Below are positions 4,371 through 21,376 of a DNA stretch of 29,173 nt, one piece after another. Source of the DNA: a virus; the IMG/VR virus record IMGVR_UViG_3300023184_000407, positions 1 through 29,173 of that record; one strand, given 5' to 3'. Numbering within the stretch: the first letter of the stretch is position 1; the number at the start of each line of letters is the position of its first letter. The notes beneath the pieces are model-generated. The model did no database searches. It was not told the DNA's origin and worked only from the letters and a program-made list of their open reading frames with translations. Position numbers and translations under genes: made by a program.

Positions 4371-4455
4371 GGGTAGTTCGCATAGCGGCTATTGCAGGAG
4401 ACTGTAAATCTTCCGCCTTCGGGCATCGGTGGTTCGAGTCCACCACTGCCCACCA
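4371..4455 (+). tRNA. tRNA-Tyr (anticodon GTA), CCA encoded
   Basis: A complete cloverleaf can be drawn. The acceptor stem is GGGTAGT/ACTGCCC with one G-U pair. The D arm is GCA ... TGC with a GG-containing loop. The anticodon stem is GGAGA/TCTTC with loop CTGTAAA, giving T33 and anticodon GTA. A long variable arm (around GCC-TTC-GGG) is as expected for bacterial type-II tRNA-Tyr. The T arm is GGTGG-TTCGAGT-CCACC, and the 3' end is A73 plus encoded CCA. Its end lies 5 nt before the next ATG, so it is probably cut from the late mRNA by host RNases. Phage tRNAs are usually explained as codon-supply or anti-host-cleavage devices. Confidence 0.95.
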
Positions 4456-13864: not shown

Positions 13865-15829
13865 ATGCCAAAGCCTGAGGCGGCCAGTAATGTATTGGTT
13901 GAATCCGATATTAACTTTATCGGCTTCAATTCACGCCTTGATCCTAGCAACCTGCAGCCCGGATACGCTCAGGCATCTTCAAATTTAAGATTACAGAGAG
14001 GTATTGCTCAGCCCAGAAAGGGCACAAAGCGATTATTGAATGATACGCTTAATGTGTATACGATGGTAGGTTCATCTACATACATTAATGCTTTAGGGCA
14101 AGATAATGTTGTTCTGTTTTTTACAGACAAAATGTATTTTTATAATACAGAAACATCTGCATTTTCTGGGCCTTATGATTATCCAAGCGGAAGATCAATT
14201 GAATTAGGTGGTACAATTGACGCTGTTCAATGCCTTGATGATATTTATATATTCAGAGGACAAGAAACAGAAAAGAGATACGGCACTGGAGGTACATCCG
14301 CTACTGCTGCTCTTGATCTTGTTTATCCTTCAGCAGGCGCAGGTCAAACAATAACTATTACAGCAACATGGATAAATAGTTATGCGTCGGCTCATCCAAC
14401 ATATTATCCGGGAGATGAAGTAACAATTTTTAATGTAACTGATTCAATTGCAAGTGGACACGCAGCATTAAATAATTCTCACATTATTACTTCAGTAATT
14501 GGAAATTCTTTTACGTTTAGTTATGTAAGTCCAGTTAATCAAAATGCATCACAACATGTATATGCGTGTGTTGTTAAAGTTAAGCCTCCTTTTGTCTGGT
14601 CTTCATCTACATCAATAGTTTCATTTTGTCCCCAAAAATCAATAGGAGACAATATTCAAACTCAAGCTGGATACACTGTTCAAGAAGGTTCTGTGCCTCC
14701 TGCTGATTTTGCATTCTATTTTCAAAATAGACTTATTTGTAAAGTTGCAAATACACAGATTGCTGTAAGCGATATTCTTGATCCAATATTTGATTTTAGG
14801 GTAAATAATTTTATCATCAATCAAGGCGGCAATGATTCAATTGTTGGAGTATTACCTTGGATTGAAAATCAATTTTTGATATTCATGGAGCGGTCTATTT
14901 GCGTTGCGTATGTTGAACCAACAACTTATATTGTTGGCACAAACGTGGGGGCAGGAAGCGCCATTACAGTGATCACAACTCAAGTTGGATGCCTGTCTAG
15001 AAAGAGTATCGTAAGCGCAGGCCAGTACGTTTTGTTTTTGTCTGGAAAAGGAATCAATGTATTAACTCCACAACTTGATTTAAAGTTAATTGGAAATACA
15101 CTTCCATTAAGTGAGCCAATTGATAACTTTTTTGACAATGTAAATTATAACGTAATTAAAACATGCGTTTCTTCATATTACGATAATAGGTTTTTTATAG
15201 CATTTGCCACTGGAACAAATCCAAGGCCAACTTCAGTATTGGTATACAATACATTAAATGAAGCATGGGAAACAATTGATACATATCCAACAGGTATGTA
15301 TGTGGATAATATGGTAATCTGCCAATACGGGAATAAACGCAGACAGTTTATTTTAACAAACTTTCAGCCCGGAGTTGGATATGGCGGAATATTTTTAACC
15401 GAAGAATTAGAAGGCGGAGATGAGTTTAGCTCTGCTTCTGGAAGTCCAACTCTTCCATTTGTTCTTCCAGCTACGCTTGATAACACTGGGTATGCCAGAT
15501 TGGCTATTGATGCCAGAATTAGATCTAGAGAATATACCTTTGGAAATACTGACTCAAAAACATTTACAAAAGCTTCATATCAGTTTAATGATGTTAATGA
15601 AGATAATATTAAAATGTTAGCCACAACGCATGATCCAGATGCTTCTGAGTATATTTTAGAATACAAATTTACTGGATCAACAAGCGGCGACTCAACATTA
15701 AGGCCAAGGATTGCAACAAGAGGCGCATCTTTGGATATTGAAGTTCAATTTACTAAAGGGAGATGCGCTTTAAAATCAGCATCCGTTTATGCAATCGCAT
15801 CTAATCGCAGTATGATTTCAGAGGAATAA
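13865..15829 (+). CDS. Probable tail nozzle (tubular) protein
   Basis: A 654-residue beta-rich protein resembling podovirus nozzle/stabilisation proteins. The N-terminus (INFIGFNSRLDPSNLQPGYA, then NLRLQRGIAQPRKGTKRL) has the feature typical of nozzle proteins, a list-like G-v-dsr-d-s-L-pgya-a-Nlrl-rG---pRkG pattern. The body has propeller-like strands (FYFQNRLICKVANTQIAVSD, PWIENQFLIFMERS, YVLFLSGKGINVL). Residues about 155-235 (from AGQTITITATW to VSPVNQ) look like an inserted small beta domain. The nozzle seals the DNA channel under the adaptor. It starts by TAATATG and is two bases from the next gene. Confidence 0.6.
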   Translation: MPKPEAASNVLVESDINFIGFNSRLDPSNLQPGYAQASSNLRLQRGIAQPRKGTKRLLNDTLNVYTMVGSSTYINALGQDNVVLFFTDKMYFYNTETSAFSGPYDYPSGRSIELGGTIDAVQCLDDIYIFRGQETEKRYGTGGTSATAALDLVYPSAGAGQTITITATWINSYASAHPTYYPGDEVTIFNVTDSIASGHAALNNSHIITSVIGNSFTFSYVSPVNQNASQHVYACVVKVKPPFVWSSSTSIVSFCPQKSIGDNIQTQAGYTVQEGSVPPADFAFYFQNRLICKVANTQIAVSDILDPIFDFRVNNFIINQGGNDSIVGVLPWIENQFLIFMERSICVAYVEPTTYIVGTNVGAGSAITVITTQVGCLSRKSIVSAGQYVLFLSGKGINVLTPQLDLKLIGNTLPLSEPIDNFFDNVNYNVIKTCVSSYYDNRFFIAFATGTNPRPTSVLVYNTLNEAWETIDTYPTGMYVDNMVICQYGNKRRQFILTNFQPGVGYGGIFLTEELEGGDEFSSASGSPTLPFVLPATLDNTGYARLAIDARIRSREYTFGNTDSKTFTKASYQFNDVNEDNIKMLATTHDPDASEYILEYKFTGSTSGDSTLRPRIATRGASLDIEVQFTKGRCALKSASVYAIASNRSMISEE

Positions 15830-15831
15830 TT

Positions 15832-16650
15832 ATGGCGCAACAATTTTTAACGGGGCATGTTTATGCAAATGGAGATGTTGTCACTGGGGACAACTTAAAT
15901 TCTGCTGTAAATAATGCAATATTACTTCCGGGGGCTATCTCTAGCCAAACTACAGGAAGTCCAGAAACTAATGATTGGATTTTGTATTCAAACAATGCAT
16001 TTACTGCTTTTAAAAAAATTCAGGTTGAACCATTTCTTAGTTTAAGCCAAGGATTTACACCTACAACTCCAAAGGCAGCAGCATTTATTGCTCCCGGTGA
16101 AGTTCACCCATGCGCGTTTACTTTTACTAAAACAGCTTCATACACTGCGGTTATATTTACTGGGCCAACTTATTTTCCCGGAACCGTGCTTGTTGGACAC
16201 AAATATTATTTAGACTTTTCAACAACGGGGGCGGTAGATGGTGTTTATGAAGTTGTTTCTGTTGTTGGAACTACTGTTAATTTTGCGCTAGCAGCGGCCG
16301 GAACTGCAGTATCTGGAGTTGGATCTGTATATTTTTCCGCAGTTAACAGATTTGTTAATGTATCTAATGTAGTTTTAACAAGCCCGACTTCAGGGGCAGT
16401 AAGCAGCCTTATTGTTAATCTTTCATCTCCAATTCCGCTTACAAGTACATACTCTCCATTTATTTCATGCGCAGGACATCCGACTGCGTATGGAAACAGC
16501 GCGACTCAATTTAGGCTTGATTATAGCGGAACTACCCCTGTAGCAAGAACTACTGTTTCTTTTGCTGTTCAGCCATTATTGCAAACTGGCGGGGCTGCTG
16601 CTCCGGGAAATCCTACAACAATACTTATTTACGCTCCATATTCTTCGTAA
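15832..16650 (+). CDS. Beta-rich virion protein, nozzle partner
   Basis: A 272-residue protein, probably structural. The N-terminus has GHVYANGDVVTGDNLNSAVN and a Leu-Pro-Gly-Ala segment as seen in tail-attached phage proteins. A small beta domain (about 112-168: HKYYLDFSTTGAVDGVYEVV, SVVGTTVNFALAAAG) resembles the one inserted in the preceding nozzle gene. The C-terminus (about 180-272) is Ser/Thr-rich and beta. No enzyme motif is visible. Start lies 2 nt after the nozzle stop (TAATTATG); end overlaps the next gene by TAATG. It is likely a tail-tip or nozzle-cap component; this is inference from synteny. Confidence 0.55.
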   Translation: MAQQFLTGHVYANGDVVTGDNLNSAVNNAILLPGAISSQTTGSPETNDWILYSNNAFTAFKKIQVEPFLSLSQGFTPTTPKAAAFIAPGEVHPCAFTFTKTASYTAVIFTGPTYFPGTVLVGHKYYLDFSTTGAVDGVYEVVSVVGTTVNFALAAAGTAVSGVGSVYFSAVNRFVNVSNVVLTSPTSGAVSSLIVNLSSPIPLTSTYSPFISCAGHPTAYGNSATQFRLDYSGTTPVARTTVSFAVQPLLQTGGAAAPGNPTTILIYAPYSS

Positions 16651-17138
16651 TGAAACTGACGCTTAATCTTTATGAGCGTATAATTGATGCAGTCCATGAA
16701 AAGTCTAGAAACCATCTTAAGATGCTCGGGCACGTCACTCGCGAAGAGTGCGCTGAGTACATTGGATTCTATGCTTTTCATAAAGGATTGTACTGGAGTG
16801 AACAGGATGGTAAAATTGTTGGAGTATCAACCGCTCATCCCGGAAAACGAGATTTTGACTGGAAGTGGAGTAATCCAGAAGGCATTTGGATGGCTCACCT
16901 TGTGTGGGCGGATAATGTCAAAGCTCACGCAGAAGTGCTCAGAAAGTTTCTTGAGCAACAAAATAAACCCGTCCACGAATTGTGGACTTGGAGAGGCGAT
17001 AAACCAGTAGCACTTACAGCAAAAAAGTTAGAAAGGATTTTGTCTTATGGGAGGAGGATCAAAAACGGAAGTAGTCCAAGCGGCACCAGCACCACAATAC
17101 AACGAGTCGATGCGGTCGATTCTACAGGCGCAGATTGA
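16650..17138 (+). CDS. Possible GNAT-like protein of the ejection cassette
   Basis: A 162-residue protein. Residues about 30-135 have the strand-helix order of a GNAT-like fold: YAFHKGLYWSEQDGKIVGVS, then WMAHLVWADNVKAHAEVLRKFL and, near the end, ALTAKKLERILSYGRR. The expected acetyl-CoA loop (Q/R-x-x-G-x-G/A) is not evident, so enzymatic activity is doubtful; comparable small proteins occur near internal virion genes of podoviruses. The last about 30 residues (IKNGSSPSGTSTT...) are low-complexity and lie entirely inside the next gene (92-nt overlap from 17047), so they are probably a readthrough tail. Start by TAATG overlap. Confidence 0.55.
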   Translation: MKLTLNLYERIIDAVHEKSRNHLKMLGHVTREECAEYIGFYAFHKGLYWSEQDGKIVGVSTAHPGKRDFDWKWSNPEGIWMAHLVWADNVKAHAEVLRKFLEQQNKPVHELWTWRGDKPVALTAKKLERILSYGRRIKNGSSPSGTSTTIQRVDAVDSTGAD

Positions 17139-18147
17139 TGTAGCGCCTCAAGTTGTTGCAATGGAGCAACAGTATCAGCCAATTTATAATAAATTACAGG
17201 CTGAACAGCAGTCGTATCTTTCTAATGCCTCAGTACAAGATGCAGCTAGGCTATACCCGCAAATAGCGCAAATTGAAGATCAATATTCTAAAGCTAATAG
17301 AGCTTCAGAACTTCAGCAGCTTCAGACATCTCTTCCAGAGTATCAAAAGGCATTTAGCTCTCTTACTCCGGGATATGCTGAGGCTTTATCTTCTGCTGGA
17401 CAGTTAGCCAAAAACTCTATGGCTAGGTCATTGGTTGATCCAAACTTAACCGATTATTCAGGAGGAGTTGATTCTATTGACAGCCAAAATAGACTTGGTG
17501 GATACATGGATTTTCTCAGGAATTCTTCCATGCAAGATCTTAGTGCCGGAAAAAGCCTTACAGCAGAAGAACAGCGGATGGCCAACCAAAGCTCTAGGTC
17601 TGCCTTTGCGGCTAGGGGAACAGCATTAACTTCCCAGTCTGCTAATTCTGAAATCTTAAATAGGGCAGATGTTTCTAGTCAGCGGTATCAACAGCGCCTT
17701 GCAAATGCAGCCAATGCCGCAGGTCAAATTCAGTCTATTCAAGGGCAGTCATTTGGACAGTCTTTGCAAAGAGAACAAGCGCAGCAACAGCGAGCTATGG
17801 CATCTCAGCAAATTCAAGCTGGATACGCTCAACTTGGAGCTGGTGCGATGGGGCAACTTCAGCAAGCGCAGGCTCCTATTTTGCAGGCGTTCTACAAACA
17901 GCCAATTCTTCAGGGTCAGGCAAATCAAGCCCAGAACATGGGACTTCAAATGCAACAGCAAGCTGGCCCTCAGTATTTTAACCCTGAAAGCCAGACTGGG
18001 ATGGGCAGCATTTACGGCGCGTATAATCAGCAAAGCCAGCAAAATATAGCCAATGCTCAAATTCAATCAGGAGCATCTGCTGGCAAATCCCAACGAAACA
18101 CAGCAATTGCTGGCGGAGTTATTATGGGTGCAGCAATTATCTTTTAA
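17047..18147 (+). CDS. Internal virion / DNA-ejection protein, Gln/Ala-rich
   Basis: A 366-residue protein with the N-terminus MGGGSKTEVVQAAPAPQYNE, typical of phage internal or ejection proteins. Most of the sequence is helical and Gln/Ala/Ser-rich (for example RYQQRLANAANAAGQIQSIQ and the Q-run around 235-310), with a conserved-looking segment RMANQSSRSAFAARGTALTS (about 178-197). The C-terminus ends in a hydrophobic Gly-rich segment (AIAGGVIMGAAIIF, about 352-366) that could insert into membrane. Start ATG has a good SD-like GAAAGGA 9 nt upstream (17031-17037), supporting this start despite a 92-nt overlap with the upstream gene. Stop overlaps the next ATG (TAATG). Confidence 0.7.
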   Translation: MGGGSKTEVVQAAPAPQYNESMRSILQAQIDVAPQVVAMEQQYQPIYNKLQAEQQSYLSNASVQDAARLYPQIAQIEDQYSKANRASELQQLQTSLPEYQKAFSSLTPGYAEALSSAGQLAKNSMARSLVDPNLTDYSGGVDSIDSQNRLGGYMDFLRNSSMQDLSAGKSLTAEEQRMANQSSRSAFAARGTALTSQSANSEILNRADVSSQRYQQRLANAANAAGQIQSIQGQSFGQSLQREQAQQQRAMASQQIQAGYAQLGAGAMGQLQQAQAPILQAFYKQPILQGQANQAQNMGLQMQQQAGPQYFNPESQTGMGSIYGAYNQQSQQNIANAQIQSGASAGKSQRNTAIAGGVIMGAAIIF

Positions 18148-18995
18148 TGGACATATCAAAAACAATTCAAGTAATTAAGACGGCCTTAATCAGAGCCAGA
18201 AGGCCAGCCGTGCTTTGGAGTGGTGGCAAGGACAGCACAGTCTTGCTTAGTATTGCTCAGGAGATCTGTCCAGATATCGAGGTAATTCATTGGAAACTTC
18301 CCTTTCTTTCCAAGAAGTACGCACACCATCATCAGGTTCAAGAAAACTTAAATATGACAGTCCATGATTGGACTCCTGTTTCTGTCGCGCTTACTCATGG
18401 GAATGACCGTATTGATGTTTGTGAGACCTACAGTATCGGCGATGGGGCTGTAAAGGTAATGCGAGGCACTGAGCCATTTGAAGAAGGCAGGCCTTGGATT
18501 TGCGGTAAAGACTGGCTTAATCGCCCAAAGGCTCACGTTGTTACTGACTTTGATGTTTTGCTTTGCGGTCACAAAAACGGCGATGAAGATCCATTGACCG
18601 GGCCAATTCCGCTTGAACTTGATATGAAGATGCTTGGGGCAACTACAAGCATGTGGTTTCCAATCAAATCTTGGAGCGATTCTGATATTGCAGATTATAT
18701 TTTAAATAATAATGTATCATATGATACTTATAGATATGATTGTAATGTTGTCAGTAAACCGGATAAACACTTAAATTCAGATTACGTTCATTCATGCTTT
18801 CGTTGCGTGGACAAGCGTGAGGGTCAATTTGTTCACTGCCCAAAGCTTGACCTTGTTGTAGAAAACATGCATGAGCTTGTTCTGCATGAACAACCCGTGG
18901 CTAGATATTGCAACGTCCGAAATGAATTGCCAGACCTGCGGAGCGTGTTGCTCCCACAAGTGGAGTTGGCCAATCTTGAAGAGGGATCGGTCTGA
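18147..18995 (+). CDS. PAPS-reductase-family (ATP-pyrophosphatase fold) protein
   Basis: A 282-residue protein with the PP-loop nucleotide-binding motif SGGKDST (residues 25-31) at the end of a beta strand (PAVLW), as in PAPS reductases and related N-type ATP pyrophosphatases. Later family-like segments are PWICGKDWLNRP (about 117), GHKNGDEDPLTGP (about 145) and FPIKSWSDSDIADYIL (about 170). A three-cysteine cluster C217-x2-C220-x10-C231 lies near the C-terminus; it is not the single catalytic Cys tail of assimilatory PAPS reductase, so classical sulfate reduction is doubtful. It is much shorter than typical DndC. Substrate is unknown. It lies between ejection-protein genes, coupled by TAATG, and its 3' end overlaps the YkgJ-type gene. 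Confidence 0.8.
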   Translation: MDISKTIQVIKTALIRARRPAVLWSGGKDSTVLLSIAQEICPDIEVIHWKLPFLSKKYAHHHQVQENLNMTVHDWTPVSVALTHGNDRIDVCETYSIGDGAVKVMRGTEPFEEGRPWICGKDWLNRPKAHVVTDFDVLLCGHKNGDEDPLTGPIPLELDMKMLGATTSMWFPIKSWSDSDIADYILNNNVSYDTYRYDCNVVSKPDKHLNSDYVHSCFRCVDKREGQFVHCPKLDLVVENMHELVLHEQPVARYCNVRNELPDLRSVLLPQVELANLEEGSV

Positions 18996-19209
18996 CGCAG
19001 CAGGAATACCAAAAAAGCTTATACGCAATGACTACCCTTTACTCAAAACCGTTAATAGTCGCTGCGTGGCTTTGTGTGGCACTGTGGGCCAGTCTGTGTC
19101 TTGTAGTATATATGAAGTCAGGCCTTTAGCCTGTCAGCGTTTTGAAAAAGGAAGTCAACTTTGCTTAGAAGCTAGAAAAAAACTATATGAAACCAAAGGA
19201 TCTTTATAG
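18922..19209 (+). CDS. YkgJ-type cysteine-cluster (metal-binding) protein
   Basis: A 95-residue protein with the YkgJ/UPF0153 signature: C3-x2-C6-x2-C9-C10 at the N-terminus, then C48, C52, C61 in the block CSIYEVRP, C71 (ACQRFEKG) and C81. Members are predicted Zn- or Fe-S-chelating proteins of largely unknown reaction. The start at 18922 gives the usual very short N-terminus before the first cysteines; ATGs at 18871 and 18886 are in frame and would lengthen it. Any of these overlaps the PAPS-reductase-family gene by at least 74 nt, and the 3' end overlaps the next gene by 23 nt. Co-encoding with a PP-loop protein suggests a shared redox or sulfur/metal chemistry, by inference. Confidence 0.75.
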   Translation: MNCQTCGACCSHKWSWPILKRDRSDAAGIPKKLIRNDYPLLKTVNSRCVALCGTVGQSVSCSIYEVRPLACQRFEKGSQLCLEARKKLYETKGSL

Positions 19210-19840
19210 CGGGGCAGGGCCGGAAAAAGTCTTTTCTCAAATGGGTCAGGGCTTTGCAGAAGCTGGCGCTAGGATTGGGGGAATGGAGCAGCAGAAATAC
19301 GCTTCTCAGGGCCAAGCAATTGCTGGCATGATAACCGGGGTTGCCGGGGCTTATGCTCAGCATCAAGAACTTAAGGCCAGTAATGACGCAAACAAAAAGC
19401 TTCTTGATAATCCCAAAGTGCAGGAAATGTTTGGGATCTCAAAAGATCAAGCTAAGCAAATGAGCATTGATGCAGACAATCTTGGCACGCAGGGCGCAGC
19501 CAAGATGTTTGATAGCTTTATGCCAATGGCATTTAAAAGCTCAATGCAGCAAAGATCTGATCAGGCTCAATCTATGCAACCTTGGAATGCGGAGGCGGCT
19601 AGAGCTGCATACAGACAAGTTGCTCCTCCTATTTATGGAGGAAGCTCTGCAGATGCAGCAAGTACTCCGTTTTCTTCTGTATATCATCCAGACAATAATT
19701 CAGGCCTTGGATCTGTTAATCCAAAAAGCCTTCCTCTCCCAGTGGATGATACTTCTGGTGAAGATATGCCTGTCCCATATCGCTCTGGAAGAAAGCAACC
19801 TTTTCTTTTTAATGATGAAAGTCTTTTTCCAAGGAGGTAA
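19187..19840 (+). CDS. Internal virion protein candidate
   Basis: A 217-residue protein beginning MKPKDLYSGAGPEKVFSQMG. The N-terminal third has a Gly/Ala-rich, membrane-compatible stretch (QGQAIAGMITGVAGAYAQHQ, about 43-62); the middle is Gln/Met-rich and helical; the C-terminal third is Pro/Ser-rich and probably disordered, ending FNDESLFPRR. Composition resembles the neighbouring ejection-type proteins (17047, 19847) and fits a small ejection protein. The start overlaps the YkgJ-type gene by 23 nt. The stop codon is embedded in the strong SD of the next gene. Function is inferred from composition and location. Confidence 0.6.
   Translation: MKPKDLYSGAGPEKVFSQMGQGFAEAGARIGGMEQQKYASQGQAIAGMITGVAGAYAQHQELKASNDANKKLLDNPKVQEMFGISKDQAKQMSIDADNLGTQGAAKMFDSFMPMAFKSSMQQRSDQAQSMQPWNAEAARAAYRQVAPPIYGGSSADAASTPFSSVYHPDNNSGLGSVNPKSLPLPVDDTSGEDMPVPYRSGRKQPFLFNDESLFPRR
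19831..19838 (+). promoter_or_regulatory. Strong Shine-Dalgarno AAGGAGGT
   Basis: Near-perfect anti-SD complement 8 nt before the ATG at 19847, fixing that start. It is the strongest SD in the window, where most starts have none. Confidence 0.85.
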
Positions 19841-19846
19841 TTATTT

Positions 19847-21376
19847 ATGGGATACCTAAGCGAATTTCTTGATTCGATGGCTTATGGAGCCTCGAAGCAA
19901 ACTGCTGAAAATGCCCAGCGAGACCTTCAGGACTTGGATAATAAAATGGCCCAGCGTGCCATTACTCCTCAGGTATACGAGGAGGAGAAAGTAAAGATAA
20001 GGAACACGTTAAATACCGTTTTAGGAAATGCACAAAAATATGCTGATAGCCTAAATGCCTCAGAGGGCGAAAGGATTGCCAGTAATATTGAAAAAGATAA
20101 GGTTGACATTGATATTGCAAACAAAGCTTTTGAAAACAAAAGCATTACAAAATCAACGTATGATGATGTCATTGCGAGCCGTGAGTCATCTATTCAAAGC
20201 GGTGAAAAAAAGATCTCTACAACTTTAAGTAAGTTAGGATTTTCTCCAGAAACTATTGATTCATTTAGTCCAGAAGAACGCGCACAATTTGCCAGTGGCT
20301 ATCAGCCTCCAAAAGTTGAAAGAGTAACCGCCGCTAAGGTTGCTGCTGCCGCCGCTCCTTCAACTGGGCAAGCGATTGAAAACGCTCCAGACTACGTTCG
20401 TGTTTCTAATAAGGCTGTTAATAAGCCAATTAGAACATGGCAGGATTACATTGAAGCACAGCCTACTGCCGGAGATAAGTATGAGGCTGAAAGGCAATTT
20501 GCCAATCAACACAGGCAAAAATCCATGATTGAAATCCTTAATCAGGCACAACAGGTTCCGCCTGAATTAAGAAAAGATTGGATTGAACAGAGCCGAATGA
20601 TGCTTGATCTCAAGACTCCTGCAATGGCAGACATCAGAGAAAGTAAGTTCTTTAAAACCACTGAAGCTGAAGCTGGAAAAGCAGGTCATCTACAAAGTGA
20701 GCTTACGCTTTCAATGATGCACAATGAGCTTTCTACTGCAAAAGTTTTGTTAGCTGAAGTTAAAAGACTTGGTGATTCAAGTGAAGGGAAAACAAAAAGG
20801 GGACAGTTAATAAGTTTTCTTGAAGCAAATCTTCCAAAAGTTATGCAGTCTATTGCAACAGGACAATCTGATGCCGTTCAATTGTCTGAAGCAAATCGTT
20901 TACTTCCAGAAGTTACTACTTTTTTTGAAAAGAGTCCAAAGGATTGGGCTGAATTAATTAAATTAAGAGGTGGGTTTTTTAAAGCATTTTCTTTGGATGT
21001 AGAAGGCTTTATGGATAAGGCTGAACTTATTTACAAGGCTGGCGCTGGTGCTCAAAATTCCATATATGATAAGGCCCATGGCAAGCTGGGAAAGGCGATT
21101 GAAGATACTGGGTTGCGTAGATTTAATGATACCATTAATCCCGGCGTTAGGGCCAAATCTGATGTTCAAGACATTCAGAATAGATTGAAGGGATTTCAAA
21201 TAACTCCTGTGTATAACCAGAATCCATTTTCTGAATCTCAAAAACCAGTGATGAATCAAACTGGACAATCTCCTCTTCCAAGTTCTGCGCCTCCTCTTAG
21301 AAAAGGGAAGGTATTAAACTTTGGACAAACCGTTAAACAAGTTACAAACTTCCAGCCGCTTTTTGGACAAGACTAA
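19847..21376 (+). CDS. Helical internal virion / ejection protein
   Basis: A 509-residue, largely alpha-helical, charged protein. N-terminal coiled-coil-like stretches (about 15-105: DLQDLDNKMAQRAITPQVYE and similar) precede an Ala/Pro linker (KVAAAAAPSTGQAIENAP, about 164-181), a helical middle (about 190-430) with Leu/Glu/Lys periodicity, and a Pro/Gln/Ser-rich disordered end (about 455-509). No enzymatic motif was found. It sits between a small ejection-type protein and the giant 2196-residue gene and is expressed from an excellent SD, so a high-copy structural ejection component is plausible. The family is not recognised by name. Confidence 0.6.
   Translation: MGYLSEFLDSMAYGASKQTAENAQRDLQDLDNKMAQRAITPQVYEEEKVKIRNTLNTVLGNAQKYADSLNASEGERIASNIEKDKVDIDIANKAFENKSITKSTYDDVIASRESSIQSGEKKISTTLSKLGFSPETIDSFSPEERAQFASGYQPPKVERVTAAKVAAAAAPSTGQAIENAPDYVRVSNKAVNKPIRTWQDYIEAQPTAGDKYEAERQFANQHRQKSMIEILNQAQQVPPELRKDWIEQSRMMLDLKTPAMADIRESKFFKTTEAEAGKAGHLQSELTLSMMHNELSTAKVLLAEVKRLGDSSEGKTKRGQLISFLEANLPKVMQSIATGQSDAVQLSEANRLLPEVTTFFEKSPKDWAELIKLRGGFFKAFSLDVEGFMDKAELIYKAGAGAQNSIYDKAHGKLGKAIEDTGLRRFNDTINPGVRAKSDVQDIQNRLKGFQITPVYNQNPFSESQKPVMNQTGQSPLPSSAPPLRKGKVLNFGQTVKQVTNFQPLFGQD

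Follow-up and report, generated by a model that had tools for sequence, protein, structure and literature searches.

Phages of the Bcep22-like group (Lessievirus) carry a PP-loop gene among the virion protein genes of their late operon (BcepIL02 gp67, JC1 gp65, and homologs in DC1, BcepMigl, and CSP3). The order of genes in these phages is head closure, small protein, acetyltransferase, virion protein with a hydrophobic C-terminus, PAPS reductase-like PP-loop protein, two virion proteins, and giant protein, and the JC1 study classes both the acetyltransferase gene and the PAPS reductase gene as morons (PMC9144972). More broadly, SGGxDS proteins such as LarE adenylate their substrates, a cysteine-bound [4Fe-4S] cluster can serve sulfur insertion, and the [4Fe-4S] PP-loop sulfur insertases use three cysteines (PMC9283937). 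The CX4CX3CC motif of FliB, which its authors compared to the YkgJ family (PF03692), also holds a [4Fe-4S] cluster (PMC8598068). Here, we describe a PP-loop gene that adjoins a YkgJ (CxxCxxCC) gene in IMG/VR virus record IMGVR_UViG_3300023184_000407, the full 29,173 nucleotides (nt) of which are hereafter referred to as the window. This pair occurs among the late genes of a large group of phages that are uncultured and for the most part environmental, and we tentatively interpret it as two parts of one modification enzyme.

Linkage and conservation of the PP-loop and YkgJ genes

Loci were gathered with two YkgJ queries, the second of them divergent, and one PP-loop query, and were scored with profiles. 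The first YkgJ query alone recovered 80 viral loci, and a PP-loop gene adjoined YkgJ in every one. Both genes were identified at 194 loci, 190 of which had YkgJ 3' of PP-loop in the same orientation and 4 of which were convergent; 139 loci were distinct at the DNA level, the PP-loop sequences formed 52 clusters at 90% identity, and 8 further loci were cut by a contig end. Profile scoring of the viral loci revealed none that encoded the YkgJ subfamily without a PP-loop gene and 9 (5 distinct sequences) that encoded PP-loop without YkgJ. The co-occurrence of the two genes is far beyond chance, and the association of both families with ejection-type genes, for which the initial annotation of the window had proposed a neighborhood survey, was borne out.

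Since these phages share ancestry, the loci are not independent events, and their number is weaker evidence than linkage that has survived rearrangement. In four loci (L049:5992-6312, L158:4827-5246, L159:4914-5231, and L160:4788-5123), YkgJ alone is inverted and still adjoins PP-loop, with the rest of the operon co-directional. In two others (L163 and L166), the pair is intact, yet the proteins that flank it in the window give no blastp match. The identity of PP-loop homologs falls to 19% while that of YkgJ is at least 50%, and the identities of the two proteins across loci are correlated (r = 0.70). Their core domains nearly touch, with a median gap of -19 nt. Outside of the overlap between the two reading frames, the median ratio of nonsynonymous to synonymous substitution rates was 0.074 for PP-loop and 0.099 for YkgJ, and both genes are under purifying selection there.

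The PP-loop protein had been described as a PAPS reductase-family protein with SGGKDS and C-x2-C-x10-C motifs, and both the family and the motifs were found exactly as described. It matches PF01507 (PAPS_reduct; E 4.8e-8, 33.6 bits against a cut-off of 22.5) and contains WSGGKDS (SGGKDS at residues 25-30), C217-x2-C220-x10-C231, and an additional cysteine, C119. These four cysteines are invariant in 137/137 sequences. W24-SGGKD29 is invariant in the reference alignment, and the lysine and aspartate of the motif are kept in 136 of the 137 distinct loci; SSGKDS replaces SGGKDS in the clade of L049, L158, L159, and L160. An AlphaFold2 model (predicted local distance difference test [pLDDT] 87.4; predicted template modeling [TM] score 0.83) has a Rossmann-like fold that, together with the SGGxDS motif, places the protein in the PP-loop superfamily (Z-scores of 10-14). 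Over residues 1-220, the model matched FAD synthase (Z 14.5), CysD (14.1), TtuA (13.2), and PAPS/APS reductases (~12; APS reductase 12.2), with further matches to NcsA (9.9) and LarE (about 10). The nearest viral structure model is that of a 'PAPS reductase' from an uncultured phage (TM 0.84, 31% identity), and the best sequence-profile match in the PDB is CysD (E 2.2e-13).

Curated family models scored the PP-loop protein at 32.5 bits for CysD (cut-off 195), 20.2 for CysH (154), and 13.6 for PAPS reductase (254.2). The DndC model (cut-off 290.4) gave 11 bits for the window protein and 19.7 for a relative, and the protein reached no TtuA-, TtcA-, or LarE-level family score. CysH catalysis uses a conserved C-terminal cysteine in an ECGxH motif; the PP-loop alignment contains no such residue, with no invariant cysteine after C231. 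Because the curated models reject CysD, CysH, and DndC by wide margins, the protein represents a branch of the PP-loop superfamily without family assignment. Residues 260-282 (pLDDT < 50) form a tail that is disordered and lies within the YkgJ overlap; in relatives, this tail reads like the start of YkgJ, itself conserved, translated out of frame, so an extra cysteine near it is probably not functional.

The YkgJ protein matches PF03692 (CxxCxxCC; E 1.1e-8, 36 bits against a cut-off of 23). Its family assignment in the initial annotation was correct; the full open reading frame (ORF) encodes 10 cysteines, or nine, the count given there, if translation starts at Met18. The true start may be that methionine (ATG 18922), since the residues before D19-C20 are poorly conserved. 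Eight cysteines are conserved in the family (seven in 137/137 and the eighth in 136/137 sequences), and the CxxCxxCC motif is present in all but one of the 137 loci. The phage subfamily has motifs of its own (CSHKWSW and GSxLCLEAR), and a pattern scan that covered 84,980 species of bacteria and archaea revealed a single locus, on a short contig of a metagenome-assembled genome. This contig also bears the PP-loop gene and the upstream ejection-type gene and is, therefore, probably a phage contig. The YkgJ profile had no match among PDB sequences. Searches of 50,697 phage records with tblastn yielded no PP-loop match with the window protein and divergent relatives (L024, L071, and L161), and for YkgJ (window and L081 queries) yielded only a bacterial-looking contig labelled as an Acinetobacter phage.

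Candidate functions of the pair

The persistence of the two genes side by side through deep divergence suggests a shared chemical task. We infer, with confidence somewhat short of even, that the proteins together make up a single modification enzyme that depends on ATP and on a metal, most likely as an iron-sulfur cluster, and that this enzyme is produced late and works inside the infected cell, not in the virion. In this scheme, the PP-loop protein would bind ATP at SGGKDS and adenylate a substrate, as CysD, FAD synthase, LarE, and TtuA do, and its four invariant cysteines would hold a metal cluster. YkgJ would bear a second cluster on CxxCxxCC and would provide sulfur, electrons, or a second chemical step. 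We take the PP-loop protein as the core because it also exists alone, and YkgJ as the dependent partner because it never does. A joint metal/sulfur chemistry, as had initially been suggested, is plausible from the invariant cysteines and the fold. Given four cysteines, the PP-loop cluster may be of a three-plus-one type, fully ligated as in APS reductase, or zinc. Three kinds of substrate are about equally likely: a protein of the phage or host, a small molecule or a nucleotide, and a transfer RNA (tRNA). As for the site of action, mass spectrometry of JC1 virions listed gp64, gp67, gp68, and gp69, and neither the acetyltransferase gp63 nor the PAPS reductase-like gp65, which by analogy argues that enzymes of this kind act in the cell.

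Several points weigh against a two-protein enzyme. Co-inheritance of a compact operon accounts for part of the linkage. YkgJ is dispensable for whatever the PP-loop core does in the genomes that encode PP-loop only, because all four PP-loop cysteines are kept in L148-L153, L157, and L161, on the contigs of which YkgJ was not found. Moreover, the cluster may have a structural role or contain zinc, since enzymes of the LarE/TtuA type have three cysteines and an open iron site and four are invariant here. FliB is larger than YkgJ, and the likeness between them is drawn at the level of the cysteine motif only. Lastly, the predicted model of YkgJ is poor (pLDDT 42) and affords no structural test of the site or of a complex.

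The alternative that best survives these data, while still unlikely, is that the genes are passive passengers (morons), in which case they stay linked because a compact late operon has been inherited vertically, and each protein has a function of its own, unrelated to that of the other. The same gene order at nearly all loci is consistent with this, as are the ability of PP-loop to exist alone and a neighboring slot in which unrelated genes (e.g., those encoding SET-domain proteins) vary as in a gene-exchange hotspot. However, YkgJ was never found without PP-loop across the 139 distinct loci, and adjacency has been kept despite inversion of YkgJ and PP-loop identities as low as 19%.

It is rather improbable that the pair is an auxiliary metabolic module in which a CysH/CysD-type enzyme raises host assimilatory sulfate reduction, with YkgJ as the electron carrier. 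The PF01507 domain and the PDB profile match to CysD point in this direction, and many genes called cysH have been reported in freshwater phages, with 167 in one survey (PMC10914622). Nevertheless, the scores for CysD, CysH, and PAPS reductase fall far below the curated cut-offs, the CysH-type C-terminal cysteine is lacking from the alignment, and CysN, CysC, and CysI were not recognized among the window proteins scanned.

This comparison bears on how such genes are counted. Phage PF01507 proteins are often read as cysH and tallied as sulfur-cycle genes. Since the PP-loop family described here passes the PF01507 threshold but fails every curated CysH/CysD test, part of the phage cysH counts may represent a different enzyme, a suggestion that derives from the window family and not from the survey datasets. 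Current annotation would probably mislabel the PP-loop/YkgJ pair as sulfate metabolism. The tight pairing also supplies the little-understood CxxCxxCC family with a specific partner and a way into laboratory study.

The initial annotation had also raised the possibility that such enzymes are packaged. Both would then be ejected alongside the adjacent internal virion proteins and would work as infection begins. Their location among ejection-type genes with overlapping reading frames would fit, but the JC1 virion list includes the proteins on both sides of gp65 and not gp65 or gp63; by this analogy, which is transferred by position as the JC1 PP-loop protein belongs to a different branch, packaging is highly improbable. 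A phosphorothioate or 7-deazaguanine-type DNA modification or counter-defense function (DndC- or QueC-like, DndC being a PP-loop protein) is scarcely credible, since the weak PADLOC matches to BrxP, QueC, and DndC that favor it (E 0.008-0.03) span little beyond the PP-loop motif, the DndC scores are far below the cut-off, and Dnd, Ssp, and Dpd partner families were not recognized among the window proteins scanned.

The late operon and neighboring genes

The window has no end repeats and is, therefore, probably a fragment of a genome. Its late genes are of the podophage type and encode scaffold-like and major capsid proteins, tail proteins, an endolysin, and a head-closure-like protein. Relatives of its capsid protein include that of Sinorhizobium phage phiM5, the record of which mentions LUZ24-like genes, and the window phage is a LUZ24/phiM5-like podophage. 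A tRNA-Tyr (GTA) gene lies at 4371-4455, just 3' of the major capsid gene; in phiM5, the corresponding place is taken by a tRNA-Met gene.

Table 1. Features of the late operon of the window surrounding the PP-loop/YkgJ pair.
Feature	Position	Strand	Basis
Head-closure/tail accessory (stabilization)-like virion protein	13865..15829	+	PHROG matches to head closure, internal virion, and virion structural proteins (E 6e-8 to 3e-4); 5' border of module
Unassigned late protein between head-closure-like and 162-aa genes	15832..16650	+	No family match
162-amino acid (aa) protein ('GNAT-like' in the initial annotation)	16650..17138	+	No significant family match
Probable internal virion/ejection protein; MGGG start, Gly/Ala/Ile-rich C-terminus	17047..18147	+	blastp matches in most relatives; JC1 gp64 is the positional counterpart
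PP-loop ATP pyrophosphatase-fold protein, 282 aa	18147..18995	+	PF01507, alignment, AlphaFold2 model, fold matches
YkgJ/CxxCxxCC cysteine-cluster protein, 112 aa	18871..19209	+	PF03692, conserved cysteines
Probable internal virion/ejection protein downstream of YkgJ	19187..19840	+	Position; blastp relatives in same place; counterpart is virion-detected JC1 gp67
Probable internal virion/ejection protein	19847..21376	+	Position; counterpart JC1 gp68 in virion
Giant late protein, 2196 aa	21383..27973	+	Position only: place of Bcep22-like DarB-like giant protein

Coupling of these genes by overlaps had been noted from the start, and the successive ORFs from 15832-16650 through 19187-19840 indeed overlap by 1, 92, 1, 125, and 23 nt. 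Promoter and terminator scans were uninformative, with results close to the shuffled expectation. The giant protein had no Pfam, NCBIfam, or PHROG match.

The description of the neighboring genes as encoding ejection proteins is drawn from position: none had a significant family match, but virion-detected proteins occupy this place in cultured phages whose genes follow the same order. Genes of phage Venkman at this place were considered and do not encode PP-loop proteins. An upstream ORF that ends in a similar hydrophobic tail lies directly 5' of the PP-loop gene in 132 of 133 distinct loci. The claim of a GNAT-like gene further upstream was not supported: the 162-aa product matched nothing significantly in Pfam, PHROG, or NCBIfam, and hhalign gave a probability below 1% for similarity to the BcepIL02 acetyltransferase, a reference that itself has no Pfam match.

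This slot, 5' of the ejection-type gene, varies within the window family and is occupied by several unassigned families and by SET-domain proteins. One family of ~115 aa that starts with MTPWQRAK (L024:3976-4320 and relatives) has no family match. Genes for lysine methyltransferase-like SET-domain proteins (L054:2967-3362, L065:2620-3018, and L082:2460-2858; Pfam E down to 1.1e-13) precede complete pairs in the late module. In L161, a SET-domain gene lies between the ejection-type gene and PP-loop; substitution of SET for YkgJ was rejected, since SET genes also occur 5' of the complete pairs.

Comparison with known systems

The PP-loop protein shares with CysD, CysH, and FAD synthase the fold (Z about 12 to 14.5), the PP-loop, and an 'FPLxxWTxxDV' stretch. 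It differs from them in scoring far under the family cut-offs, in an extra beta-strand region (residues 79-110), and in its C-terminal cysteine motif. With the [4Fe-4S] sulfur insertases TtuA, NcsA, and LarE it shares the fold, and its cysteine motif could hold a cluster. The phage YkgJ and the wider PF03692 family have in common CxxCxxCC and further conserved cysteines.

The closest likeness in gene arrangement is to the Bcep22-like phages, where virion protein genes likewise flank a PF01507 PP-loop gene and the head-closure gene lies upstream. The two PP-loop proteins have profile similarity (E 5.4e-9 over 170 columns) but belong to different branches (21% identity), with the cysteine pattern CC ... 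CxxC in the Bcep22-like proteins and C ... CxxC ... C in the window family. The Bcep22-like module also lacks YkgJ, and JC1 gp66, the product of the gene that follows PP-loop, is a Gly/Pro-rich protein with no cysteine. The initial proposal of an undescribed system is therefore only partly upheld: the position of the PP-loop gene in the operon is already known from these phages, whereas the pairing with YkgJ, which was not found in cultured-phage records or in the literature searched, appears to be undescribed. It is possible, if on balance doubtful, that a PP-loop branch and a YkgJ subfamily peculiar to phages together form an iron-sulfur enzyme of two proteins, which would place an undescribed modification on a protein, nucleotide, or tRNA late in infection, and that its PP-loop part fills an enzyme slot kept in the ejection-gene operons of distantly related podophages.

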